From positions 1 to 49,495 of the forward strand of contig JACZJL010000146.1 of NCBI GenBank assembly GCA_014860585.1: a stretch of DNA of 49,495 nucleotides, given 5' to 3'. The translations under genes and the position numbers were made by a program. Position 1 is the first letter of the stretch; every line of letters starts with the position of its first letter. Shown here piece by piece: positions 17,125 to 47,152 of the stretch. Source of the stretch: Bacteroidales bacterium (lineage in GTDB: Bacteria; Bacteroidota; Bacteroidia; Bacteroidales; 4484-276). Under the pieces are notes generated by a model. That model was not told where the DNA came from. It was given only the letters and a program-made list of their open reading frames with translations, and did not search any database.

Positions 17125-17952
17125 ATGAAAAAATTATTTGCTTTTTTGACGATTGCTGCACTCTTCACATTTGGAATTGCAGTTACAGTTTTTGCACAGG
17201 ATCAAACTACCACAGACCAGGCGGCTCAGACTGAAGCAGCAGATATGGGTCAGGATGAGAGCATGGAAGACGAACCCGTGCAATCCACTCTCGAAGCCGA
17301 ACCAGAGGTAGAAAAAGAATTTCACCAGATTTTAAAAGAAAAATTCATTGAGGGTGACTGGCGTTTTATGGGTATCGTATTGCTCACGCTGATATTCGGG
17401 TTGGCATTGTCCATTGAAAGGATTATTTACTTAAACCTTTCCACAACCAATACCAGCAAGCTACTGAATAAAGTGGAATCTGCCCTCGAAACCGGTGGAA
17501 TTGAAAGCGCAAAAGAGGTCTGCAAAAATACAAGAGGTCCTGTGGCTGGTATTTTTTACCAGGGCCTTGAAAGGTACAGTGAAGGATTGGATATTGTTGA
17601 GAAATCAGTTGTTGGGTATGGCAGTGTGTTAATGGGACGCCTGGAGTCAGGTTTGTCCTGGATTTCACTTTTTATTGCCCTTGCCCCTATGCTTGGCTTC
17701 CTTGGAACAGTTATCGGAATGGTTCAGGCATTTGATGATATCGCAGCTGCCGGTGACATTTCTCCAACCATCGTAGCCAGTGGTATTAAAGTAGCTCTTT
17801 TAACCACAGTTTTCGGATTGGTCGTTGCTATTATCCTTCAGCTTTTTTACAACTACATTGTGTCAAAAATTGATGGCCTTGTCAACAGTATGGAAGACAG
17901 TACCATTTCTTTTATTGATATTCTTACAAAATTCAAACTCAACAAAAAATAG
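17125..17952 (+). CDS. exbB: MotA/TolQ/ExbB family proton channel protein
   Basis: A 275-residue inner-membrane protein of the ExbB/TolQ family, part of the complex that converts proton-motive force into energy for TonB-dependent transport. It has an N-terminal signal-like segment (MKKLFAFLTIAALFTF) and an acidic Gln/Glu-rich periplasmic stretch (residues 25-70), a membrane segment at about 80-95 and two more near 170-260. The signature SLFIALAPMLGFLGTVIGM and the following KVALLTTVFGLVVAI match the channel core. First gene of a four-gene operon with two ExbD genes. Confidence 0.9.
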   Translation: MKKLFAFLTIAALFTFGIAVTVFAQDQTTTDQAAQTEAADMGQDESMEDEPVQSTLEAEPEVEKEFHQILKEKFIEGDWRFMGIVLLTLIFGLALSIERIIYLNLSTTNTSKLLNKVESALETGGIESAKEVCKNTRGPVAGIFYQGLERYSEGLDIVEKSVVGYGSVLMGRLESGLSWISLFIALAPMLGFLGTVIGMVQAFDDIAAAGDISPTIVASGIKVALLTTVFGLVVAIILQLFYNYIVSKIDGLVNSMEDSTISFIDILTKFKLNKK

Positions 17953-17964
17953 AAAGGCATCACA

Positions 17965-18384
17965 ATGAAAGACAAAGTAGCAACAACGCTCAGGATATTT
18001 CTAACCTTGCTGTTGGTTGTATCTGGGGTGCTTTTTATCATTTTTTACTCAACGGGAGAAGAATTTACCAGTGCTGTACTTACCTGGGGTTATATACTTC
18101 TGGCCATTACAGTCATCGTAACCATTGTGTTCCCGATCTTAAACACCATCTCAAATCCAAAAAGTGGAAAAACAGTACTTGTAGGAATTATCGGATTTAT
18201 TGTTTTATATCTGATTTCTCATGGACTGGCTTCTGGTAATATTGAAGGAGATGTTTACCAGGTTTTCAATATAACCGAAGCTACATCCAGATTTATTGGA
18301 GCCATGCTCAACATGACTTTTATTCTGGCAATTGTAGCAGTGTTGGCAATTATTTATTCTGGGATTTCCAATTCATTAAAATAA
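17965..18384 (+). CDS. Small four-helix membrane protein between exbB and exbD
   Basis: A 139-residue hydrophobic protein with four predicted membrane segments (about 10-30, 40-60, 72-92 and 112-135). I recognise no catalytic motif or named domain. It sits 12 nt after exbB and 10 nt before the first exbD, so it is translated with them; a structural or assembly role in the ExbB/ExbD complex is a reasonable inference from position only. Similar unnamed proteins are common at this place in Bacteroidota ExbBD operons. Confidence 0.75.
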   Translation: MKDKVATTLRIFLTLLLVVSGVLFIIFYSTGEEFTSAVLTWGYILLAITVIVTIVFPILNTISNPKSGKTVLVGIIGFIVLYLISHGLASGNIEGDVYQVFNITEATSRFIGAMLNMTFILAIVAVLAIIYSGISNSLK

Positions 18385-18394
18385 GAAAAACACT

Positions 18395-18970
18395 ATGGCA
18401 AGGCCACTTCAAGAAATTAATGCCGGATCAATGGCAGATATCGCCTTCTTGTTGCTGATCTTCTTCCTGGTAACAACAACCATGGATGTGGATACAGGAA
18501 TCGGAAGGAGACTTCCACCGCCATTAACCGGTGATGAAAAACCACCGGACATTAACGAACGTAACATCTTTACTGTTAATATCAACAGTCGCGATCGCCT
18601 TCAGGTTGATGGCCAACCTGGTGATATCCGTACACTTCGTCAGCAAACCAAAGAGTTTCTGAGGAATCCGCAAAACCGTGATGATATGCCTGAGATGATT
18701 ACCAAGACATTTCCAGAGCTTGGCGCTGTCAGGGTACCCAAGAATGCTGTCATTTCATTGAAAAATGACCGTGGAACATCCTACAAGATGTACATTGCCG
18801 TCCAAAATGAATTGGCGGCTGCTATCGCAGAATTACGGAACGAACTTTCGATGGAAAAATTTGGTAAACGCTTCACCGAGCTTACTATTGATACTCAAAT
18901 TGAGGCCATCCAGTCAGCCGTTCCAATTCCTATTTCAGAAGCTGAACCAGTAGAAGTTGGAGGAGAATAA
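18395..18970 (+). CDS. exbD: ExbD/TolR family biopolymer transport protein (first copy)
   Basis: A 191-residue ExbD-type protein. A short cytoplasmic N-terminus leads into one membrane helix with the conserved proton-carrying Asp in GSMADIAFLLLIFFLV (Asp15), and the rest is periplasmic. The periplasmic part (residues 60-165) is longer than in enterobacterial ExbD (about 140 residues in total) and contains an extra segment rich in Asp/Asn and Arg (RNPQNRDDMPEM). It ends 2 nt before the second exbD, implying coupled translation. Two different ExbD subunits probably form a heterodimer in the ExbB channel. Confidence 0.9.
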   Translation: MARPLQEINAGSMADIAFLLLIFFLVTTTMDVDTGIGRRLPPPLTGDEKPPDINERNIFTVNINSRDRLQVDGQPGDIRTLRQQTKEFLRNPQNRDDMPEMITKTFPELGAVRVPKNAVISLKNDRGTSYKMYIAVQNELAAAIAELRNELSMEKFGKRFTELTIDTQIEAIQSAVPIPISEAEPVEVGGE

Positions 18971-18972
18971 TT

Positions 18973-19452
18973 ATGGCAAGATTTAAAAGAGGAAAAAAAG
19001 GGGGCACCCCTGGAATCAGTACAGCATCATTACCTGATATTATTTTCATGTTGCTGTTCTTCTTCATGGTTACCACTGTGATGCGGGAAGTAACACTGAT
19101 AGTAAAAATTAAACCGCCGGAAGCTTCTGAGGTAAGCCGGCTTGAAAAGAAAGCACTGGTTAGCTACATTTACATTGGAGTCCCGGTAAAGGCTAATCTT
19201 TTTGGTACAAAGCCACGTATCCAGCTGAACGACCAGTTTGCCAGAACCTCAGACATACCTACTTTCGTTACCTCTGAGCGTCAGGCTCGTGACGAATCCG
19301 ACAGGAGGTTCATCACCACATCACTCAAAGTGGATGAAGGGATACGAATGGGAATTGTAACCGATGTAAAACAAGAGCTGAGAAAAGCAGGTGCTTTTAG
19401 AATTAATTATTCAACCAGGAAAGTTGAAAAATTGAATTTTGCGAAGTTCTGA
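18973..19452 (+). CDS. exbD: ExbD/TolR family biopolymer transport protein (second copy)
   Basis: A 159-residue ExbD with a basic N-terminus (MARFKRGKKGG), the conserved membrane Asp in SLPDIIFMLLFFFMV and a periplasmic domain ending KQELRKAGAFRINYS, the family's usual C-terminal strand pattern. It differs clearly from the first copy in length and sequence, so it is not a recent duplicate. Last gene of the operon; a strong hairpin follows 24 nt after the stop. Confidence 0.9.
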   Translation: MARFKRGKKGGTPGISTASLPDIIFMLLFFFMVTTVMREVTLIVKIKPPEASEVSRLEKKALVSYIYIGVPVKANLFGTKPRIQLNDQFARTSDIPTFVTSERQARDESDRRFITTSLKVDEGIRMGIVTDVKQELRKAGAFRINYSTRKVEKLNFAKF

Positions 19453-28986: not shown

Positions 28987-32820
<3,834 letters not shown>

Positions 32821-36126: not shown

Positions 36127-37131
36127 TCACTTTAGTAATTGCCCACTACTTTTTGCAAAACGCTGCAATCCCTCAGGCACTTTTTCAAAATAGGGTGTTG
36201 TAGCGGGAATCACTGACGGCTGACCAAGTTGCTCCATGGTTTTCATCCCCTTTTCGCTGTTTAAAAGAAAAACAAGGAATTGCTCGGCCAACTCTTTGTT
36301 TTTGGATTTGTGGGGGATGGTTAGTCCATAGACCATGCTTTTCCCGGTTTCGGTAATTGTACTTCCGGGGGTTGATCCAAGAGTCTCGGTGCTCACCTGG
36401 CTGTACCACTCTTCCAGTTCAGCATTACCCTGACTCAATTCCGGGGGAAGTTGGAGATAAGGTAATTTATGCTGCTGTGCTACACTTCGATACAAAAAAA
36501 TGTAGTCAACATGGTTGCTTTCCAGCAATGCGATCAGATCAGTTTCTTTTGGCCGGATGTTTTGAGAATTTTTATCGAGGAGCAGATCAGCCAGACCCGG
36601 TTGTTGATAAAAAATCTCAGCCAGCTTTGCGGTAAATACCGTTCTCACTCCGCACGGATCGTGATCAGGGTTACTGCGGGCGATGCTCACATCGGGTCTC
36701 AACAGAATTTCCGTCCAGTTTACCTGATTGATTTCTTCAGCATAGCGCGATTTATCGGTGTAAACAATGGCCATTTCGTTGGCAGCAAATTTCAGGTACC
36801 ATGAAGCATGATCTGGGATAAGCATATTTTCGATCACGGTATAATCTGCCGAAAGGTAAATATCGCAGGGAGTTTCGATTTCCATGATCCGCCTTGCCCC
36901 AGCTTTACTCCCCCAGGCTTCGGTTAAAAATCTGACCTCAGGGTGTTCTGCCTGAAAAGCTTCAGTGATTAGTTTTACTGGATAGGTAAGACTGCCGGCA
37001 TGGACAATATGCAGTGTATTTTCGCTGGTGCCTTGCTGATTTGACTGAAAATGACATCCGGACAAAGCAATAAACATTATAACCCATATCGAAACCAAAT
37101 CCGGCCTTCTACCATTGATGGATCTTTTCAT
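36127..37131 (-). CDS. wtpA: Tungstate/molybdate-binding lipoprotein (WtpA-like)
   Basis: A 334-residue extracellular solute-binding protein of the WtpA/ModA type. The lipobox ends in Cys26 (FIALSGC). Family motifs are HAGSLTYPVKLI, SADYTVIENML, FAANEMAIVYTDKS and DPCGVRT, which in WtpA surround the oxyanion site, so tungstate and/or molybdate is the likely ligand. It is the third gene of a minus-strand set: ModE-type regulator, TonB-dependent receptor, then this gene 35 nt later. In known systems WtpA feeds an ABC permease (WtpB) and ATPase (WtpC), but neither is next to it here. Confidence 0.85.
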   Translation of the reverse strand: MKRSINGRRPDLVSIWVIMFIALSGCHFQSNQQGTSENTLHIVHAGSLTYPVKLITEAFQAEHPEVRFLTEAWGSKAGARRIMEIETPCDIYLSADYTVIENMLIPDHASWYLKFAANEMAIVYTDKSRYAEEINQVNWTEILLRPDVSIARSNPDHDPCGVRTVFTAKLAEIFYQQPGLADLLLDKNSQNIRPKETDLIALLESNHVDYIFLYRSVAQQHKLPYLQLPPELSQGNAELEEWYSQVSTETLGSTPGSTITETGKSMVYGLTIPHKSKNKELAEQFLVFLLNSEKGMKTMEQLGQPSVIPATTPYFEKVPEGLQRFAKSSGQLLK

Positions 37132-37147
37132 AAATGCAACTTTTTTG

Positions 37148-37155
37148 CAAAGTTA
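37148..37155 (-). promoter_or_regulatory. Candidate internal promoter of wtpA-like gene (TAACTTTG)
   Basis: TAACTTTGCAAAA on the minus strand is a perfect TAnnTTTG match in the 35-nt gap between the TonB receptor stop and the binding protein, 16 nt before its ATG. It could allow separate transcription of the binding protein. Confidence 0.45.
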
Positions 37156-37166
37156 CGGGTTCCTGG

Positions 37167-39485
37167 TTAAAACGTGTATCTCAGTTCAGCGGTGATCATT
37201 CTTCCCGGAGCAATCATATTTCTTGAATCTACGTAGTCGTCATCCAGTAGGTTATTGACTTTAACCGAAGCAGAAAGCCCTTTGTAAACCGGCCGCCAGA
37301 GTTGCAGATCAATATTGCTGTAAGCTTCAATTTCTTCAGTGTTCACATCATTCAGCCATTGTGCGCCTTTGTAATCATAGGATACAAACAAATTCACATA
37401 CTTGTTTCTCCAGGTGAAGGAGGCATTGAGTATGTCATTTGGCTGGTAAACAAGGGATTTTCCTTCCAGATCATCGTCAATTTCATCATTAAATCTTTCA
37501 TATTCAACAATTTCAGTGTCAATATGGCTATAGGATAAAGATAGATTGATATTCTCGGTAAATTTGAGATTAACTGCCAGTTCAGCGCCCAGAATTTCAA
37601 CTTTTCCAATGTTATCCTTGATGCGGATTGGTCTCATTCGTCCACTCATCATCAATGAGTCGCCAGTAGCAATGTAGGCATGATAATCGGTCCCAATTGA
37701 ATAATAAACAGTAGGGGAAATGGTGATTATTTTTCCGGCGAAAATATCGCCGCCAATTTCAAAATTATCGAGGTACTCAGGTTTTAAATCAGGATTAGCC
37801 AGCTTCATTCCCCCGGAAATCCGCCCGGTACGGCACATGTCATCCAGCACAGGCGGCCTGAATCCACGGCTGTAACCGCCATACACACGGTATTGATTTT
37901 CAATGTGATATTGTAACGAAAGTCGGGGACTGACTGCATTGAATGAAGCATCGTCCAGTTCGCCGGCGAAATCCTGCAAAAATGCCGTTTCGTTTGTCGG
38001 GTCTTCCACGATAAATTCGCCATCGTAGAAACCGGCAAAATCATACCTCAACCCGGCCAATACCCGCCAGGGAGAATCAAACAATCTGATTTCATCCTGC
38101 ACGAAGAACCCTGTCTGAAACATTTTCCCGCGGTTAATCACCTGGTCGGTGGAGGTAATGTAAATGTCGTTACCATCCACAGCGCCGTTTTTGGAATCAA
38201 GTCCAACAGTGAAAGCATGTGATTTACCGGCGTCGAAATTCAACGCAGTAAGTAACCCTAAATCCGTTCTGAATGATTCCACATCGTAACGGGTGATTTT
38301 ATCATTTCTGACGCTCTCCCTGATGTTCTGATAATTCTCCCGCTGGCCGTATAATGTTACATTCAGCTGACTGGTTTCGGAAAAGCTTTTACGGTACATC
38401 AACCTTCCGTTTACATTATCATAGGTATTGTAGCCGCCATCTTCGGCTGCCAGTTCATCATTTTCAAAACCATAACCGGTATAGTCCTGGCCTGTTCCCC
38501 TGTCGCCGGTGTAAAAACCTCCTGCAAGCTCAATAGTCTGATCCGGTTTGATGTTATAACCCAAACGACCATTTACAAGGTATTCATCCAAAAAAGAAGG
38601 AACTGAATATTCATCCACCTCATCTGCAGGTGTGGTGATGTAACCGTCGCTGGTTCGGTACATTCCGTTAACTCCCCAGAAAAGTTTATCCTGCTTCCCT
38701 GAAAGAGCAGCCTGCGTTTGCCATGTGTCGAATGTTCCGTAACTCTGGCTGATATTACCCTGAAGATTCTTCTCCGGAACCGGGGTAATCATGTTAATGA
38801 TACCCCCCATGGCATTTCCGCCATAAATAGACGAACCTGGTCCTTTTATTACTTCAATTCGCTGAATGTCGTTTACACTCAATGAATTCCAGTTTACCGT
38901 ACCTCCGTCGGATTTATTGATCGGGACACCATCCACTAAAACCAGCGTGCGCCCCTGCTCGCTCCCCATTCCACGCAACGAAACAGTGGATGAAGATAAA
39001 AAAGCAGAACTTCGGCTAACCGAAATACCCGGAATAGAACGCAACAACTCATCAGCCGAGAGAGCAGGAATCGAACTAATCTTTTCCCGACTCATTACTT
39101 CAATCCTTGAAGGATAATCCATCGCCGTCTGCCGGCTGCGCGTCGCTGATACGACCACATCTTCCAGTTCTAAAACATCCGGCTCAAGTGCAATTTCGAT
39201 ACTTTCCCCAAAAACACTATCGGTAAAGCTTTCCCGTGTCGTCTTAAAACCCACATAGCTTACAACCAACACAAATAGCTTTTGGTTTTCAAATGGAATC
39301 TCAAAAAAGCCCTCATTGTTGCTCGTTGTTGATGTATTCGTTCCTTCCACCTGAATGGTGGCGCCGCTTAAACCTTCGGATGTTTCCGCATTGATTACTT
39401 TACCGCGAACGATTGTTTGCGCAGATAAACTGCCTGATATCAATCCAAAGGCAATTAACAGTAAATAAAAAAAAATTCTTTTCAT
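37167..39485 (-). CDS. TonB-dependent outer membrane receptor, probably for oxyanions
   Basis: A 772-residue TonB-dependent receptor. A signal peptide (MKRIFFYLLLIAFGLISGSLSA) is followed by a carboxypeptidase-regulatory-like N-terminal domain (residues 25-105), a plug (VVVSATRSRQTAMDYPS, LLRSIPGISV, LVDGVPINKSDGG, IEVIKGPGSSIYGGNAMGGIIN) and a 22-strand type barrel ending AELRYTF. It belongs to the classical BtuB/FepA-like group, not the SusC group (no SusD partner). It lies 69 nt downstream of a ModE-type regulator and 35 nt upstream of a WtpA-type binding protein, so the likely cargo is molybdate or tungstate, perhaps in a chelated form. The cargo is inferred only from context. Confidence 0.85.
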   Translation of the reverse strand: MKRIFFYLLLIAFGLISGSLSAQTIVRGKVINAETSEGLSGATIQVEGTNTSTTSNNEGFFEIPFENQKLFVLVVSYVGFKTTRESFTDSVFGESIEIALEPDVLELEDVVVSATRSRQTAMDYPSRIEVMSREKISSIPALSADELLRSIPGISVSRSSAFLSSSTVSLRGMGSEQGRTLVLVDGVPINKSDGGTVNWNSLSVNDIQRIEVIKGPGSSIYGGNAMGGIINMITPVPEKNLQGNISQSYGTFDTWQTQAALSGKQDKLFWGVNGMYRTSDGYITTPADEVDEYSVPSFLDEYLVNGRLGYNIKPDQTIELAGGFYTGDRGTGQDYTGYGFENDELAAEDGGYNTYDNVNGRLMYRKSFSETSQLNVTLYGQRENYQNIRESVRNDKITRYDVESFRTDLGLLTALNFDAGKSHAFTVGLDSKNGAVDGNDIYITSTDQVINRGKMFQTGFFVQDEIRLFDSPWRVLAGLRYDFAGFYDGEFIVEDPTNETAFLQDFAGELDDASFNAVSPRLSLQYHIENQYRVYGGYSRGFRPPVLDDMCRTGRISGGMKLANPDLKPEYLDNFEIGGDIFAGKIITISPTVYYSIGTDYHAYIATGDSLMMSGRMRPIRIKDNIGKVEILGAELAVNLKFTENINLSLSYSHIDTEIVEYERFNDEIDDDLEGKSLVYQPNDILNASFTWRNKYVNLFVSYDYKGAQWLNDVNTEEIEAYSNIDLQLWRPVYKGLSASVKVNNLLDDDYVDSRNMIAPGRMITAELRYTF

Positions 39486-39525
39486 GTCTTTTTACAAGTA
39501 TTAAATGAATCAATTTTTCGAGTTG

Positions 39526-39533
39526 CAAAAATA
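39526..39533 (-). promoter_or_regulatory. Promoter -7 element of TonB receptor gene (TATTTTTG)
   Basis: TATTTTTGCAAC on the minus strand is a perfect TAnnTTTG match, 40 nt before the receptor ATG and 21 nt past the regulator stop. It suggests the receptor and binding protein can be transcribed apart from the regulator, which might itself bind here. Confidence 0.55.
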
Positions 39534-39554
39534 GCATATCGGTGAATAAAAAAA

Positions 39555-39935
39555 CTATTCCTGTTGAATAATTTTATTTAATTCGTCCTGCAATCCCGAA
39601 AGATGCTGCTGGATTACCGGATCAACCTGATTATAAAGTCGTTCGAAATATTCAACCATCTGAACTCCTTTCCGGGTGAGCACGGTTTGACCACCTGCGG
39701 CGCCGCCACGGCTTTTTTCGATGAGTGGAAATCCCAGTTTTTCTTCGATTTTTTTCAGGTTATCCCATGTCTGGCGATAGGCATATCCCATCTTATCCAC
39801 TGCTGCTTTCAATGAGCCGGTGTCACGGATGGCTTTGAGCAAAATCCATTTGCCTTCGCCCAGAATGCTTACCTGGTCGTTGGACTCGATCCAGAATTTG
39901 TATTTCAGTTGCAAATGTGATTTGTTTTCAGACAT
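39555..39935 (-). CDS. ModE-type winged-helix transcriptional regulator
   Basis: A 126-residue protein consisting of the ModE/LysR-like winged-helix domain only. The core reads ILGEGKWILLKAIRDTGSLKAAVDKMGYAYRQTWDNLKKIE, read in parts, followed by the hallmark wing GGAAGGQTVLTRKG. It ends in a short helical tail; the molybdate-binding MOP domains found at the C-terminus of E. coli ModE (262 residues) are absent, so ligand sensing, if any, must differ. Such short ModE proteins commonly control molybdate/tungstate uptake. It lies directly upstream of the TonB receptor and WtpA-like genes. Confidence 0.85.
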   Translation of the reverse strand: MSENKSHLQLKYKFWIESNDQVSILGEGKWILLKAIRDTGSLKAAVDKMGYAYRQTWDNLKKIEEKLGFPLIEKSRGGAAGGQTVLTRKGVQMVEYFERLYNQVDPVIQQHLSGLQDELNKIIQQE

Positions 39936-40066: not shown

Positions 40067-41161
40067 TTATAATCTCCTTACACAATGAGGAAGCATGATG
40101 ACGTTTTCGTTGGTTAGTGTTTCGGCACATTCTATAGGGTCACAACACGTTTGGCAGACTCTTTTATAAGCTCTGAAATGCAAAAGCTCGACATCCTGCG
40201 AAAAAAAGTCTTCTTGAACTGGCTCCGTGCGGAGAAGATCAGTGCTGAGATACTTTTTATTATCGTCAGGAAAAACAGTAACCACTACAGCCTTGTTTCC
40301 AAGCTGGTTTTGAATCATTAAGGCTCCAAGAAAATTTGCGCCCGAAGATATCCCGACACCAAGGCCAATTTCGCAGGATAACTTCTGAGCCATGATAATG
40401 GCGTCCCCATCGTCAACTGCTACCACTTTGTCTAAATGATCGAAGTTAATAATTGCAGGCACAAATTCATCCGAAATGCCCTGTATCCGATGTTTACCAA
40501 CTTTATGTCCGGTGGATAATGTAGGGGAATTAGCGGGCTCCAATGGATGAATCATAATTGATGCATCCCGTTCTTTGAGGAACTTTCCAATTCCCATTAT
40601 TGTTCCACCTGTACCCACACCGGCAATAAAAGCGTCGGGGTTGATATTTCTGTACTTTAATTGCCACCAAAGTTCTGGCGCTGTGGTGAAATAATGTGCG
40701 TTGATGTTGTCTTCGTTCGAGAATTGCTTGGGTAGAAATCCATTCGTTTTTTCAGCAGCAATTCTTGCCATCTCAATACTTCCCAGGAAGCCGCCTTCTT
40801 CTTTACTAACGAGTCTGATAGTGGCGCCATAGCTTTTGATCAGGTTCTTCCGTTCGTCGCTCATCCAGTTTGGCATAAAAATATTTACATGGTGGCCCAA
40901 AGCCCTGCCGATAGCTGAAAAAGAAATTCCTGTATTGCCGCTTGTAGCCTCATAAATCTGTACCTCCGGATTCAATAATCCCCTGTTGTAGGCTTCGCTG
41001 AGGATATAAAATGCCATGCGGTCTTTAATACTTCCGGTCATGTTAAGATTCTCGGCTTTTGCATAAATTATCCGATTTTCGCCCCTGTAGCGAAAATTAA
41101 TCTCTAACAGAGGGGTATTCCCGATCAGACTCTTCAAATTTTTGATGTTGGAATAGATCAT
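40067..41161 (-). CDS. Cysteine synthase-like PLP enzyme with Cys-rich C-terminal tail
   Basis: A 364-residue fold-type II PLP enzyme of the CysK/CBS family, which replaces the acetyl group of O-acetylserine (or a related substrate) with sulfide. The PLP lysine is in [14 protein letters not shown], the substrate loop is [13 protein letters not shown], the phosphate-cradle is [15 protein letters not shown], and [12 protein letters not shown] is present. Standard CysK proteins are about 310 residues; here about 50 extra residues follow [10 protein letters not shown] and hold Cys336, 339, 340, 345 and 360, a spacing that suggests metal or Fe-S binding or redox control. Monocistronic on the minus strand, between the regulator and the SDR gene. 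Confidence 0.85.
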
Positions 41162-41249
41162 TTGCTTTTCAATTTTTGTTGTTTGTCGTTCAGTATGTGT
41201 AGATATTTATTTTGATTGTTACTCCATTCATTTTGCAATTAATCAGTTT

Positions 41250-42083
41250 TTATGTTAAACCCGCATTGCCTTTTTGCAACAGGTTGGTGTTTTTGTGAAT
41301 CAGAAAAATCAAACGCATCGAGAGGAGTGGCAAAAAGTATACGGTGAGTTTATTGAGCAAACCGGGAATACACTCAGCTTTTTTTCTGAATAACGACCTG
41401 ACAGCTTTTTTTGCAACGAATTCGGGGGTTTGCATAATACCAAGCCTCCTGGCCAGTTTCAGATTGATTTTGTTGGGATCATAAAGTGCTGTTGCCGTTG
41501 CACCGGGAATCAGGCAGGTAGCGTTCACGCCATAGATTTTCAATTCGCTTCGCAAAGCGCGCGTGAAAAAGCGCATGTAAGTTTTGGAAGGGCCATAAAT
41601 CGAAATTCCGGGATAAGGCATCACTGCAGAAATGGAAGAGACATTGAGAATGTGCCCACTGTTCCTTTGTTTCATTTCGCTTCCAAATAACCGGCAAAGC
41701 ATTGTTGGAACCAGTACGTGCAACTGCAGGACAGCATTGATTTTTTTCGCCGGAGTTTCCATAACTTCAGAGAAAACCAGAAAGCCGGCATTGTTTACCA
41801 ATATTTCGACTTCAAGGTCTTGCTGTTTTGTAAAGTTAAAAATTTCCTGCGCTGAATTTTCCTTTGATAAATCAATATCAAGCACATGGCATGAAACAGC
41901 ATATTTCGCTTCAATTTCAATCTTACAATTTTCTAAAAGCCCCGGCTGATTGCTGACAAGAAATAAGGAAAAGCCATTGGCGGCCAATTCGTGCGCAATG
42001 GCCAGCCCAATGCCTGATGAGCCACCTGTGATCAGTGCAACTTTTTTTGCAGGTTTATTTTGCATGGCCGGCGTCTTCTTCAT
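41250..42083 (-). CDS. Short-chain dehydrogenase/reductase (SDR)
   Basis: A 277-residue classical SDR. The cofactor-binding motif is TGGSSGIGLA (near residue 20), followed by NNAG, the catalytic Ser in NVSSISAV and the YGPSK pair of Tyr and Lys. A hydrophobic C-terminal stretch (TVYFLPLLSMRLIFLI) suggests membrane association, as in the YqjQ/DltE-type members. It uses NAD(P)H to reduce or oxidise an unknown substrate. The start overlaps the upstream flavin reductase gene by 29 nt, or by 11 nt if the ATG at 42065 is used, so translation is coupled. Confidence 0.85.
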   Translation of the reverse strand: MKKTPAMQNKPAKKVALITGGSSGIGLAIAHELAANGFSLFLVSNQPGLLENCKIEIEAKYAVSCHVLDIDLSKENSAQEIFNFTKQQDLEVEILVNNAGFLVFSEVMETPAKKINAVLQLHVLVPTMLCRLFGSEMKQRNSGHILNVSSISAVMPYPGISIYGPSKTYMRFFTRALRSELKIYGVNATCLIPGATATALYDPNKINLKLARRLGIMQTPEFVAKKAVRSLFRKKAECIPGLLNKLTVYFLPLLSMRLIFLIHKNTNLLQKGNAGLT

Positions 42084-43233
42084 TTTGATGACATCTGAAA
42101 GGGCCGTTATACATCACCGCAATACAATGATTACTTGTGTCACAGGATGAGCGGGATATCTCATTATTCCTGATCTTATTGATAAAGTCAGGGTCTTTGA
42201 TCAGCGCGCGTGCAATGGCCACAGCATTAAAGCCTTCAGATAAAACTTCGTCAATGTTTGTTTTTGATAAAATACCTCCGACGTAGACCAGAGGCATTTT
42301 CAGTGCTTTTCGGAACAAGCGGGCATCGTCGAGGAAATAGTTTTCATGGAAGGGTACTTTATGGATCATTATTTTCCCAAATATCCGGACCATCAGGCTT
42401 ACGAATGGATTATCGACATGCCGGGCAAGAGTCCTCACCGGCATGGCCCCGCGAAGGATATACATCGGAGACCGGCTCACAAAGCCGCCGCTCAGCACCA
42501 GGGCATCAACACCTATATTTTCGAGTGTTTTAGCAACCTGGAGCGATTCCTCTGTCTCCATCCCTCCACGAACACCATCACGCATGTTCAGTTTAACCAA
42601 AACAGCCGTTTTTCCTCCTGCGGCTTGCAACACCTCCTCCATCACCAGTTGCATGAAACGCATTCTGTTTTCCAATGATCCGCCAAACTCATCTTTCCGC
42701 CGGTTGAAAATTGACGAAAGAAACTGGCTGATAAGATACCCGTGCCCGGCATGAATTTCTACCGCATCAAAGCCGGATTGCTGTGCAAGACGCACAGCAT
42801 CCCCAAAACTCGTTACTATTTCTTGAATTTCATTTTTCCTTAATCCACGTGCAAACGAGGGTGCATACAAATTGAAATGGGTTGAGGAAGAGACGGGCTG
42901 AGATCCTGCCATGCCATTTTTTGCCATATTGCCGCAATGCCCCAGTTGAATGGATGCAGCAGCACCTTCGGTATGAATGGCATCGGTAAGGCGCTTCAAT
43001 TGTAATAAAATCTCTGGTCGAATCCATAGCTGATGAGGAAATGAAAGTCCGTTCCGGGTCACCGAAGCATAAGCCACCGTTGTCATCCCGATGCCGCCAG
43101 CTGCTACTGAGCGATGATAGTTAATGAGCTCCTCACTCACCTGGTTTCCCGGGCACATGCCTTCAAAGGCTGCTGCCCTGATGGAGCGGTTGCGCAGCGT
43201 GAGCGGGCCAATTTTAACCGGTGTAAACAGCAT
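42055..43233 (-). CDS. NADH:flavin oxidoreductase (Old Yellow Enzyme family)
   Basis: A 392-residue FMN-dependent ene-reductase-like protein with a TIM barrel. I choose the ATG at 43233 (MLFTPVKIGPLTLRNR), the family N-terminus, over the longer open frame to 43269. Characteristic motifs are the LGHCGNMAK region, AGHGYLISQFLS with the substrate-binding His pair (EIHAGHGYL), RRKDEFGGSLENRMRF and the late VGGILS...VAIARALIKDPDF. A Cys pair in the tail (SSCDTSNHC) is like those of the Fe-S members, but the second Fe-S and Rossmann domains of those enzymes are lacking. It reduces an alpha,beta-unsaturated carbonyl or similar substrate. Coupled with the overlapping SDR gene. Confidence 0.85.
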   Translation of the reverse strand: MLFTPVKIGPLTLRNRSIRAAAFEGMCPGNQVSEELINYHRSVAAGGIGMTTVAYASVTRNGLSFPHQLWIRPEILLQLKRLTDAIHTEGAAASIQLGHCGNMAKNGMAGSQPVSSSTHFNLYAPSFARGLRKNEIQEIVTSFGDAVRLAQQSGFDAVEIHAGHGYLISQFLSSIFNRRKDEFGGSLENRMRFMQLVMEEVLQAAGGKTAVLVKLNMRDGVRGGMETEESLQVAKTLENIGVDALVLSGGFVSRSPMYILRGAMPVRTLARHVDNPFVSLMVRIFGKIMIHKVPFHENYFLDDARLFRKALKMPLVYVGGILSKTNIDEVLSEGFNAVAIARALIKDPDFINKIRNNEISRSSCDTSNHCIAVMYNGPFRCHQNEEDAGHAK

Positions 43234-43237
43234 GTGG

Positions 43238-43270
43238 CAAAAGTAAGGGATTATTGAATATTTCAACAAA
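43238..43270 (-). promoter_or_regulatory. Leaderless-type promoter of flavin reductase gene
   Basis: On the minus strand TTTG (43270-43267) is followed after exactly 21 nt by TACTTTTG (43245-43238), then CCAC and the ATG at 43233. Both elements and their spacing match the Bacteroidota consensus, and the start codon sits where transcription should begin. Confidence 0.75.
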
Positions 43271-43606: not shown

Positions 43607-43655
43607 CGACATGCAAAATTCACATATCGTAATATTTACTTTAATAAGAGAAGTG

Positions 43656-44723
43656 ATGAAGAAGAGTATAAAAGGAGTTTTGGTTCTTTTTGGGAGTTTG
43701 CTTTTAATGACTTCGTGTAATCTCAATCCTGATGCTGTTACCGGAGCAAGCAAACCGATGGTTCAAAATGGGAATAGTCTGTTTCACCAGACAGAGGAAG
43801 TTAGTTTAACCGTTGGTGAGATTACCATTGAGGGGGAGGTAAAAAATCCGGGAAAATTAAATCTGGAAGACTTTTACAAGAGAGAGGTGATGGTAAAAGA
43901 GGCGCTCTATGATAAGCAGAAAGGAATTGACTTTATCGGTGCATACCGCTATCGCGGCTATTCTTTGTTTGATCTGCTTCATCCTTACAATCATGAGAAA
44001 AAAAATAAAGAAGAGTTCCCCCCGGCGATCGATCTTTACGTAGTTATTGAAAATGCGGCAGGGGAGTCCGTTGTATTCAGTTGGTCAGAAATCTTTCATA
44101 CCAATATTCCTCATCAGATGTTGATTGCAACTGAAATGGCGCCAATCGTCCCTTACAAAAAGGAAGTAAACTATCCGGTGTCAAAAGAATGGAAGATTGT
44201 TTGCGGTAATGATCTTTTTGCCTACAGGATGCTCGAAAATCCTGTGAAAATAAACGTGCATTCGTTTGGTGAAAAGGATTACGCTATTCAGAAAGGAATG
44301 AAACCTATGTATAGTTCTGATGTCAGCGTTGTTTTCGGGGACGGATTATCGTTTGTCATTGACCCGGTAAATGACACAACAACCTACCGAACCTATTTTT
44401 CTAGTTTTTACGGTATGGGGATGGGTTACCATGAAGCAAAATATTTTAGGGGTCCGGTACTGTTTGATCTTTTTGACAACCAGATTGATTTATTTGATTC
44501 CGAACGGATTACCCATGGACTGGTTTGTTTTGCCGGTCTTGACGGTTACCGATCAGTTTACAGCTTCAGCGAACTGTTCAACCGTACTGACCAGGTTTAC
44601 CCAATACTTGCTGTTCCCGAAAACCCTGAGGATGGTGGATTTTACAGGGTTTTTCATCCAGCAGAGTTCTATGCCGACCGCTCGGTGAAATCATTACAGG
44701 AAATCTATTTTTTTAACAAATGA
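43656..44723 (+). CDS. Lipoprotein with two molybdopterin-domain (SUOX-like) halves
   Basis: A 355-residue lipoprotein; the ATG at 43656 gives a clean signal (MKKSIKGVLVLFGSLLL) and lipobox Cys21, whereas the ATG at 43611 adds 15 residues that blur it. The first half reads like the oxidoreductase molybdopterin-binding fold: LTVGEITIEGEVKNPGKLNLEDF, then YRYRGYSLFDLL, ESVVFSWSEIF and ...YPVSKEWKIVCGNDLF. The second half repeats the pattern weakly: YFRGPVLFDLF, DGYRSVYSFSELF, YPILAVPEN. The single Cys that binds Mo in sulfite oxidase-type proteins is not where expected, so cofactor binding is doubtful. It lies near a molybdate/tungstate uptake locus, but a link is only suggested by distance. 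Confidence 0.65.
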   Translation: MKKSIKGVLVLFGSLLLMTSCNLNPDAVTGASKPMVQNGNSLFHQTEEVSLTVGEITIEGEVKNPGKLNLEDFYKREVMVKEALYDKQKGIDFIGAYRYRGYSLFDLLHPYNHEKKNKEEFPPAIDLYVVIENAAGESVVFSWSEIFHTNIPHQMLIATEMAPIVPYKKEVNYPVSKEWKIVCGNDLFAYRMLENPVKINVHSFGEKDYAIQKGMKPMYSSDVSVVFGDGLSFVIDPVNDTTTYRTYFSSFYGMGMGYHEAKYFRGPVLFDLFDNQIDLFDSERITHGLVCFAGLDGYRSVYSFSELFNRTDQVYPILAVPENPEDGGFYRVFHPAEFYADRSVKSLQEIYFFNK

Positions 44724-45304: not shown

Positions 45305-47152
45305 ATGAAGAAAGTATTTGACATTTGGTCAAAAAAACCGATGCAGAAAGAGAGTTATCTGTTTGGCTTTGTTATTTTTTTACTCTGGATTTACCTGATT
45401 CTCCGGGGAATTTTCGTTCAACCCATGCACGATGAAGTGGCCACCTTTTTCACCTTTGTGCAGTCAGGCCGGTTTTTACCCTACTTTTCTGAGTGGACTA
45501 CCAACAACCATCTGTTGAATTCGCTGCTGACCTGGATTAGCTACCATCTTTCCGGCTCATCACCGATCTCATTGCGTTTACCCAATTTACTCTTTTTCCC
45601 ATTTCTCGGCTATTTTCTCTGGAAAATTGCATCTTACCTCAACTCCAGGTTGTTACGCTGGGGGTTTCTGACCTCCATTTTATTTATTCATCATTTCATC
45701 GAATTTTTTGCCCTCTCGCGTGGATATGGATTGGCATTTACCCTACTGGCCGGCAGCATCTGGTTCACGATGAAGGCAATGGAATCAAACCAAATCAAAA
45801 ATCAGGTCATGGCACTGGCTTTTGGTGTGTTGTCGGTTAGTGCCATCCTGATTCATGTAAACTCACTGATTGTTGTCATTGGTTTGTTTCTGATGAATAT
45901 CTTTTTCAACACCTCAGTTAAAAAGCAAAAATTCACCAAAATCATTGTACTAATAATAATAGGTATCATTCCAGCCTTGCTTGCCGTTCGCTACCTGCTT
46001 GATCTGAATACAGCAGGGCGGCTGGATTATGGCGGTGATCAGGGATTTTGGGAAGCATCGGTAAAAGACCTGACCTCGATGCTACTTGGCGATTTATCCG
46101 GCTGGCTCAACAGTTACATCCTCATATTGGTCGCGGTATTAATTCTATTGACCGGATACTTTATTTTTAATGAATGGCAAAAGAAACCGGGTATCATACA
46201 CTTGTTTAATCCAAGGTGGGTGTTGTTCTATTTGCTGACCGGAAACCTGGCGGGCTTTTTCATCGAACATCATCTGTTTGGCGTCCTTTATCCCGGCAAC
46301 CGGACTTCCATTCAATTTATCATCTTTTTCCTGGGGAGCATCTTTTTCCTACTTGATGGTTTTAATAAAAAAATCAAACCTTTGCTGTCATTATTTTTGA
46401 TACCTCTCCTGTTTTTCCCTTTACAATTTTTTGTTTCGGCAAACCTATCCAAAATCGCCATTGAGAATGAATCTATTCCCCTGAGATTCTTCAATACAAT
46501 TCAGGAAGAGCGATCGGAAGAAAATCGTCAGCCAACCATACAGGGCTACAAAGGCCGTGAGTTACGCTGGGCTTACCTGAATTATCGCGAAAAAGCACAA
46601 ATGCCCATGGTACATTGCAGTTCTTATCCTGATGATATTGCCGACTTTCAGATTGTTTACCCTGATCAAAACCCTTCATGGTGGAATTTGTACGATTCCA
46701 TTGATAGCGATAATGTTTCGGGTTTGTATCTGCTGGAACGAAAAAACAAATTGAGCAGGCGTAAGCTGATAAAAGAAATCATACCCCCTTTCGATGAAAT
46801 GCAAAACGATGAATATTTTGCCATTTCAAGGGGTAGCGTTGACTCTATGGCCAACGCGCATCTTTTTGCAGAATTTGATCTGTCAATCACCACCTCAGAT
46901 CAACCTTTCGATGGGTGGATCGTATTTACTGTTCTGGATAAAGATGGGCAGGGTTTGCGCTATGAGCGGATTCCGCTGAACTGGTATAACGTTGACTGGA
47001 GTTCTGATGGCAGGTGGATCCGAACCGGCTTAATGATCAATGCTTTGCCAGAGGAGACGACAACCTATCTCGCATACTTGTGGAATATCCACACTAAATC
47101 GTACAAAATAAATTCGATCGAATTTACGCTTTTTATTCTTGAAAATCAGTGA
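45305..47152 (+). CDS. GT-C fold glycosyltransferase-like membrane protein
   Basis: A 615-residue integral membrane protein with roughly ten membrane segments (residues about 18-38 and 85-400) and a soluble C-terminal region of about 200 residues that is beta-rich (AEFDLSITTSDQPFDGWIVFTV). The first periplasmic loop carries the Asp-Glu pair of GT-C enzymes (MHDEVATFF, Asp43-Glu44) and NNHLLNSLLTW, as in the Pmt/ArnT/GT39 and related lipid-linked sugar transferases. It probably moves a sugar from a polyprenyl phosphate carrier onto a surface glycan or protein. Monocistronic, between tRNA-Pro and the ATP synthase operon; the acceptor is unknown. Confidence 0.7.
   Translation: MKKVFDIWSKKPMQKESYLFGFVIFLLWIYLILRGIFVQPMHDEVATFFTFVQSGRFLPYFSEWTTNNHLLNSLLTWISYHLSGSSPISLRLPNLLFFPFLGYFLWKIASYLNSRLLRWGFLTSILFIHHFIEFFALSRGYGLAFTLLAGSIWFTMKAMESNQIKNQVMALAFGVLSVSAILIHVNSLIVVIGLFLMNIFFNTSVKKQKFTKIIVLIIIGIIPALLAVRYLLDLNTAGRLDYGGDQGFWEASVKDLTSMLLGDLSGWLNSYILILVAVLILLTGYFIFNEWQKKPGIIHLFNPRWVLFYLLTGNLAGFFIEHHLFGVLYPGNRTSIQFIIFFLGSIFFLLDGFNKKIKPLLSLFLIPLLFFPLQFFVSANLSKIAIENESIPLRFFNTIQEERSEENRQPTIQGYKGRELRWAYLNYREKAQMPMVHCSSYPDDIADFQIVYPDQNPSWWNLYDSIDSDNVSGLYLLERKNKLSRRKLIKEIIPPFDEMQNDEYFAISRGSVDSMANAHLFAEFDLSITTSDQPFDGWIVFTVLDKDGQGLRYERIPLNWYNVDWSSDGRWIRTGLMINALPEETTTYLAYLWNIHTKSYKINSIEFTLFILENQ

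Follow-up and report, generated by a model that had tools for sequence, protein, structure and literature searches.

A TonB-dependent receptor in a putative ModE regulon points to outer-membrane molybdenum or tungsten acquisition in a Bacteroidales bacterium

Here we describe a locus in a 49,495-nucleotide stretch of DNA from a Bacteroidales bacterium (GenBank assembly GCA_014860585.1, contig JACZJL010000146.1, positions 1 to 49,495; hereafter the window) that probably belongs to a ModE-controlled system for acquiring molybdenum or tungsten (Mo/W), one that starts at the outer membrane and has its inner-membrane partner elsewhere in the genome. The two metals are usually assumed to enter the cell through general outer-membrane pores, and TonB-dependent outer-membrane receptors (TBDTs) as a rule import ligands that are bulky or very scarce. 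On the minus strand of the locus a short ModE-type regulator is followed after 69 bp by a TBDT and, 35 bp further on, by a WtpA-type lipoprotein, and a second lipoprotein gene lies on the plus strand. The open reading frames (ORFs) and sites under discussion are these:

36127..37131, minus strand: WtpA tungstate/molybdate-binding lipoprotein, 334 amino acids (aa); TIGR03730, solved relatives, aligned carboxylates
37167..39485, minus strand: TBDT, 772 aa; ORF, Pfam domains, family linkage
39519..39541, no strand assigned: predicted ModE-like operator, 9-bp-spacer variant, CGAGTTGCAAAAATAGCATATCG, 33 bp before the receptor ATG
39555..39935, minus strand: ModE-type regulator of 126 aa, limited to the winged-helix DNA-binding domain; ORF, TIGR00637 below cut-off, PDB 2ijl/1b9m
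43607..43629, no strand assigned: predicted ModE-like operator, 9-bp-spacer variant, CGACATGCAAAATTCACATATCG, 26 bp upstream of the start codon (43656)
43656..44723, plus strand: lipoprotein, 355 aa, with two regions related to the sulfite-oxidase-type (PF00174) domain; family match, operator
17125..19452, plus strand: ExbB (17125-17952) and two ExbD (18395-18970 and 18973-19452)

The initial annotation had described a ModE-type regulator, a classical TBDT and a WtpA-type binding lipoprotein set on one strand at short gaps, and each part of that description held: the ORFs lie at the coordinates given for them, and their products match the expected families. The receptor exceeds the Pfam cut-offs for the plug (PF07715, Plug) and the barrel (PF00593, TonB_dep_Rec_b-barrel) and carries an N-terminal carboxypeptidase-regulatory-like domain (CarbopepD_reg_2). 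The binding lipoprotein passes the NCBIfam model TIGR03730 (272.1 bits, cut-off 242.75), stays below a second WtpA model, NF003196 (319.4 vs 355), and carries, by sequence reading, the lipobox LSGC. The seven proteins of solved structure that it matches at E<=0.001 are all Wtp/ModA-type tungstate/molybdate-binding proteins, archaeal to judge by the locus names. In the WtpA of Pyrococcus furiosus the metal ligands include Asp160 and Glu218, according to the consulted part of PMC10221389. D158 (DPCG motif) and E196 (IRPKE motif) of the window protein are invariant in three aligned rows and fall on columns where the archaeal structures also have acidic residues, and the window protein appears to keep both putative metal-ligand carboxylates. 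That these two motifs carry the ligands is a mapping that we partly presume.

The regulator matches the ModE DNA-binding model TIGR00637 at 67.7 bits (E 7e-19), below the cut-off of 98.5, and its PDB matches are 2ijl (E 7e-9), 1b9m and 1o7l. No C-terminal molybdate-binding domain was found in its 126 residues, where Pfam at E<=0.001 gives a helix-turn-helix match only, in agreement with the earlier remark that it lacks the molybdate-binding domains of Escherichia coli ModE; by its sequence it is the DNA-binding half of ModE and not a full ModE. Such single-domain ModE proteins are known from delta-proteobacteria, namely Desulfovibrio and D. psychrophila (PMC545781, in the sections drawn on here), so the short regulator is unusual rather than new.

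Homologues of the receptor were sought in 295 genomes of the class (three candidates scored per genome, E<=1e-100), and three genomes matched: the bacterium's own, G324 and G445. In G324 a ModE, a PF00174 protein, the TBDT, a lipoprotein and a protein sorted by the type IX secretion system (T9SS; the protein is hereafter T9) stand in a row, while in G445 the order is a lipoprotein that we call LP, the TBDT, T9, WtpA, WtpB, WtpC and a MobB-like protein. A search of 118 relatives (up to eight candidates scored per genome, E<=1e-60) returned 45 receptor matches in 35 genomes, the bacterium's own included, and the 44 others fall in 41 regions. A four-receptor profile run against 395 genomes of the phylum (E<=1e-120, two candidates per genome) found the own genome only, its threshold being probably too strict. 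As controls we took 40 regions around other TBDTs, two per genome from 20 genomes (19 of the 34 receptor genomes and the bacterium's own), each the first listed once family members and regions already taken had been excluded. Counting ModE, WtpABC, MoeA, MoaA, MoaC, MOSC, MobB and AOR as core Mo/W genes, such genes occur in 12 of 41 family regions against one of 40 control regions (p 0.0015), ModE or Wtp genes in 11 of 41 against none of 40, core genes or the sulfite-oxidase-like lipoprotein in 16 of 41 against one of 40 (p 5e-5), LP in 29 of 41 and T9 in 14 of 41, each against none of 40; the thresholds were fixed once the family regions had been viewed but ahead of the control scan, the marker queries were taken from family or wtpA loci and so favour the family, most strongly for LP, T9 and the lipoprotein, and contig ends cut many of the compared regions.

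Scanning named genomes for WtpA gave 12 loci (L030-L041). The wtpB gene lies directly 3' of wtpA in nine of them (L030-L034, L037, L039-L041), with wtpC next in eight; at least one other gene separates the two in L035 and L036, and the L038 stretch ends too early to show wtpB. AOR lies within a few kb of wtpA in six loci (L030, L032, L033, L034, L036 and L037), ModE precedes WtpA in three (L035, L036 and L038), and L036 runs on into genes that read as MoeA-, MoaA-, MoaC- and MOSC/Mog-like, molybdenum-cofactor (Moco) names taken from the sequence. WtpA was found in 22 of 59 close relatives, the own genome included, and 22 regions fetched from these allowed gene order to be compared. A member of the same genus (L078) has ModE (79%), TBDT (70%) and WtpA (70%) in the order of the window. 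Another relative (L066) has wtpABC on one strand and, alongside on the other, the receptor, LP, T9, the sulfite-oxidase-like lipoprotein and ModE, and a third (L115) has ModE-WtpA-TBDT-lipoprotein-WtpB-WtpC on a single strand. Altogether the receptor sits amid wtp/ModE genes on one strand in five families (L050, L115, L121, L145 and L148). Among 58 genomes other than the own, WtpA is present in 12 of 16 with the receptor and in nine of 42 without (p 4e-4), a figure that ignores kinship and assumes that the unlisted genomes of the receptor search include those scanned for WtpA. In a receptor tree built by a quick method, with 14 of 49 inner branches weak, Mo/W linkage appears in all three main groups, and the nearest relatives of the window receptor are those of L078 (with ModE and WtpA), of L114 in genome G699 (a stretch cut at the contig start, on which no Mo/W gene was seen) and of L115 (the full operon).

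Two further proteins are conserved beside the receptors, as at L049 11037-12856 and L050 8972-12980, namely the LP lipoprotein (LP293/LP306) and the T9SS-sorted protein, and may be surface partners like SusD or BtuG. Neither has a match in the window, the part of the own genome that was searched for them.

A comparison of upstream regions yielded an inverted repeat, CG[AT]TATG-N10-CATA[AT]CG (CGWTATG-N10-CATAWCG), first seen at L036, L115 and L050. The consensus of E. coli ModE is ATCGNTATATA-[N6]-TATATANCGAT (PMC545781, same sections), and the two have in common the ends CGNTAT...ATANCG and a span of 24 bases. Up to two mismatches and 4 kb upstream, the repeat precedes 23 of 45 family receptors and none of 36 control TBDT frames, those detectable in 31 of the 40 control regions (p 4.5e-8); of the 47 family receptors, L115 and L050 were excluded as training, and the window's own is uncounted. 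At no more than one mismatch the counts are 17 against none, and at no mismatch eight against none. The L078 receptor is one of the 22 without the N10 form and carries an N9 form, and receptors without adjoining Mo/W genes often have the operator. The whole genomes of 22 chosen relatives contain 20 perfect operators, spread over 14 of them, and a single copy of the reversed pattern. All but one of the 20 lie across the start of a gene of the receptor-locus set or at most about 115 bp from it, the overlaps arising because the ORF caller takes the longest frame. The genes at these sites are aldehyde dehydrogenase (eight), LP (seven), and T9, ModE, WtpA and the sulfite-oxidase-like lipoprotein (one each); the remaining site (L212) lies amid unrelated phage-like genes. 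Four of the eight aldehyde dehydrogenase sites (L074, L137, L148 and L216) share their stretch with ModE, WtpA or AOR.

The aldehyde dehydrogenase downstream of these eight sites (L213, L215, L216, L217, L220, L074, L137 and L148) is a protein of about 545 aa. AOR lies on the same stretch as this enzyme and its operator in L148 and L216, and the cell might save metal by switching from the tungsten enzyme to an ordinary aldehyde dehydrogenase and back.

Scanning the window itself with a spacer of 9 or 10 and at most two mismatches yielded three sites, of which two, 39519-39541 and 43607-43629, precede a gene by no more than 150 bp. A looser N9 pattern fitted to both occurs nowhere else in the 4.7-Mb genome, and its reversed control gave zero. 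When the non-coding gap is aligned with that of L078, the receptor operator sits inside the longest conserved block, 29 of whose 30 columns are kept, and the motif upstream of the L078 lipoprotein is kept only in part. No palindrome was found in the 250 bp upstream of the window ModE, and a fixed-N10 pattern with up to three mismatches is uninformative in the window (six matches vs 5.0 expected). The predicted, ModE-box-like operator upstream of the receptor supports its membership in a ModE regulon.

The second operator brings in a gene that the interval first annotated, 36127-39935, had left out, the lipoprotein gene at 43656-44723. We chose the start at 43656 because of the lipobox (LLMTSC, read from the sequence) and because the operator overlaps the start of the longer ORF at 43611. 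The product joins a lipoprotein family at E 6e-139, whose members lie between WtpA and WtpB in six of the 22 regions (L069, L070, L072, L076, L079 and L080) and in L036; in L078 the orthologue is directly divergent from ModE. It has no Pfam or NCBIfam match of its own, and one of 11 relatives has a Pfam match. Its relation to the PF00174 protein of G324 is seen by hhalign (probability 93.9), in the second half only, and by blastp (1e-7 and 4e-5), in the first half and weakly in the second. Sulfite-oxidase-type domains have a metal-ligand cysteine. No cysteine is found among the invariant or near-invariant columns of the lipoprotein family, which would argue for a carrier rather than an enzyme if that cysteine is needed. 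An AlphaFold model of the lipoprotein made with two sequences was unusable (mean pLDDT, the predicted local distance difference test, 28), the alignment being too shallow.

Between ModE and this divergent lipoprotein gene, at 40067-43269, lie genes for a CysK-like protein with a cysteine-rich tail, an SDR and an OYE-type flavoenzyme. We rejected them as candidates for chelator biosynthesis, since they are not found between ModE and the lipoprotein gene in L078, where the two face each other directly. Elsewhere in the window, 28987-32808 encodes a GH2 beta-galactosidase with a laminin-G-like domain inserted between its domains, and 45305-47152 is an ORF of 615 aa that matches neither Pfam nor NCBIfam at E 0.001.

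The locus had been described as lacking its inner-membrane transporter, which is true locally, wtpB and wtpC not being adjacent, and does not hold for the genome as a whole (194 contigs, 96% complete, 4.7 Mb). The search for wtpBC that the initial annotation suggested turned up adjacent wtpB-type (271 aa) and wtpC-type (365 aa) genes, unlinked to the locus, on another contig (G000:C67), matching by blastp the genes beside wtpA in relatives at 37-66% for WtpB and 31-48% for WtpC, the latter range including generic ATP-binding cassette (ABC) ATPase similarity. The genome also encodes one tungsten-type AOR-family protein and two molybdopterin oxidoreductases that exceed the Pfam cut-off; the frame of one of these two contains an in-frame TGA. 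The genome thus has both the Mo/W chemistry and the inner-membrane step, with the operon simply split. The TGA-containing frame (G000:C18:43570-44850, L053) is possibly a selenocysteine formate dehydrogenase, and a SelB-like GTPase frame accompanies it (L053 10794-12776), both labels coming from sequence reading.

Taken with the linkage, the operator and the co-occurrence with WtpA, these genes suggest the following course. The TBDT, energised by TonB-ExbBD, would take up Mo or W in a scarce form and concentrate it in the periplasm; the ExbB/ExbD set at 17125..19452 is a possible energiser of TonB-dependent receptors, a presumed role that is unspecific to this locus. From there the metal would reach the WtpA lipoprotein, possibly with the sulfite-oxidase-like lipoprotein as intermediary, and WtpBC, whose genes are on the other contig, would transport it through the inner membrane for use by pterin enzymes such as AOR. 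The ModE-type protein would bind the CGNTAT...ATANCG-like operators before the receptor and before the lipoprotein, and the short ModE would repress the receptor-locus set when the metal suffices. We infer the cargo, the order of hand-over, the operator binding and the repression by metal from this arrangement. Since TBDTs typically handle large or rare ligands, a complex is favoured over the free oxyanion as cargo. A more specific version, which we think doubtful, is that the receptor takes a pre-formed organic Mo/W complex, either a molybdophore or tungstophore or a scavenged metal-pterin (Moco, or Wco with tungsten) or its breakdown products, and that the co-regulated lipoprotein, whose two sulfite-oxidase-type domains have no conserved cysteine, is a non-enzymatic pterin or metal carrier that strips the cargo and loads WtpA. 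The outer-membrane uptake of Mo/W proposed in the initial annotation thereby gains conserved linkage, co-occurrence and a shared ModE-like operator, and is amended in that the transporter is not absent and the locus is larger.

Several observations weigh against this reading. Core Mo/W genes and the lipoprotein are missing from 25 of the 41 family regions, and 15 also lack the operator, six of these being stretches under 8 kb; with genes, lipoprotein and operator combined, 26 of 41 regions carry a Mo/W signal. Four of the 16 receptor genomes gave no WtpA match (G664, G666, G680 and G699), among them G699, which is 94% complete and has the second-closest receptor (56%), and whose receptor may therefore use another periplasmic protein or carry other cargo. 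The perfect operator is missing from eight of the 22 searched relatives, including G324 and G445, and most perfect sites stand at aldehyde dehydrogenase, LP or T9, whose Mo/W role is deduced from the company they keep; at three of the 20 the gene itself is directly linked to Mo/W or to the lipoprotein. The N9 pattern was fitted after the window sites had been seen, so its count of two is no test in itself, and what does test it is that no other N9 site occurs in the genome, that the two sites stand 33 and 26 bp ahead of their start codons and that the site at the receptor is conserved in L078; in G646 the pattern occurs once, before the receptor, against three reversed-control sites. The own wtpB scores 132.8 bits against a cut-off of 182.6 for the modB model TIGR02141, and the strict operator is absent at the own wtpBC in a whole-genome pattern scan. 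Finally, L124, L126 and L133 form a nested, fully supported subclade of receptors accompanied by FecB/CD/E-like ABC genes and, in L124 and L126, by a NikR-type regulator, all names read from sequence. These receptors, at 36-39% to the nearest of four query receptors and among the 15 regions without Mo/W signal, probably belong to a nickel system that draws on this receptor family. The initial annotation had named unrelated transport genes beside orthologous receptors as telling against its proposal, and in these three they do occur. The family alone thus does not fix the metal; it is probably a metal-receptor family whose cargo changed at least once.

It is unlikely that the ModE-regulated receptor imports a different cargo needed alongside the Mo/W enzymes, such as an iron-siderophore, heme or another cofactor. 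The closest solved receptors by E-value, with a top score of 87 bits, take heme, pyrroloquinoline quinone (PQQ) or siderophore-type cargo and include heme PhuR, a PQQ transporter and the colicin I receptor, and the best NCBIfam score among the matches listed belongs to the heme receptor TIGR01785; both would suit such a cargo, as would G699 with its close receptor and no WtpA. That score, however, is 244.2 bits against a cut-off of 316.85, the vitamin B12 receptor model TIGR01779 gives 161.3 against 599.7, and no cut-off is reached among the best 25 of 31 families matched, while the receptor keeps one-strand wtp/ModE company in five families. Nickel or mixed metallophore uptake by a multi-metal family, with the ModE linkage secondary, draws on the NikR/Fec subclade and seems very improbable for the window, where a blastp of all ORFs against four NikR/Fec markers gave no match at E<=1e-3 and where, as in L078, ModE and WtpA stand at the receptor; among family loci those markers were matched in that subclade only. 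That an ordinary TBDT came to lie beside wtpA and a regulator by chance is hardly credible: TBDTs are common, with 23 PF00593 matches in the own genome, but the order is kept in the same genus, the linkage recurs in other families, and the controls show it in one of 40 regions and the operator at none of 36 frames.

The proposed Mo/W system can be set beside known ones, as far as the sections of the cited accounts used here describe them. It resembles WtpABC of Pyrococcus furiosus in a WtpA that passes TIGR03730 and in the wtpB/wtpC-type genes of the genome, and differs in that wtpA is split from wtpBC and adjoins an outer-membrane receptor gene (PMC10221389). With ModE systems it shares the ModE DNA-binding domain and the ends and span of the operator, whereas here there are no molybdate-binding domains, the putative regulon includes a TBDT and lipoproteins, and the operator of the own genus is one base shorter (PMC545781). 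A dedicated outer-membrane step in molybdate acquisition has a parallel in Pseudomonas aeruginosa, where ModA secreted by the H2 type VI secretion system (H2-T6SS) acts with the outer-membrane protein IcmP; there it involves a secreted ModA and a metalloproteinase-type outer-membrane protein, here a TBDT (PMC8602904). Plug and barrel are common to the window receptor and the TonB-dependent metallophore and cofactor receptors (PhuR, the PQQ transporter/YncD, Cir and BtuB), from which it has diverged, at no more than 87 bits to any solved receptor, and differs in its linkage to Mo/W genes. The catechol siderophores of Azotobacter vinelandii are said to chelate molybdenum and tungsten. Mutants without them are tungsten-sensitive (PMC6448029), and the likeness lies in the idea of chelated Mo/W; here no chelator genes were identified, with no systematic search made for them. 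In the part of the open-access PMC literature consulted, no TBDT was found to be described as serving molybdate or tungstate, subscription papers and regulon databases being outside that scope.

New here would be a TBDT with a new class of cargo and a ModE regulon with an outer-membrane branch. If the reading is true, some Bacteroidota spend energy to win molybdenum or tungsten, probably as complexes, and the substrate list of TBDTs would extend to the group-6 metals. Import of a pre-formed complex, should that version hold, would mean that Mo/W is obtained by scavenging cofactor, much as PQQ and B12 are through their own TonB-dependent receptors. The receptor family, 47 members of which were compared besides the one in the window, would gain a likely function, and the outer-membrane step of Mo/W nutrition would become testable.

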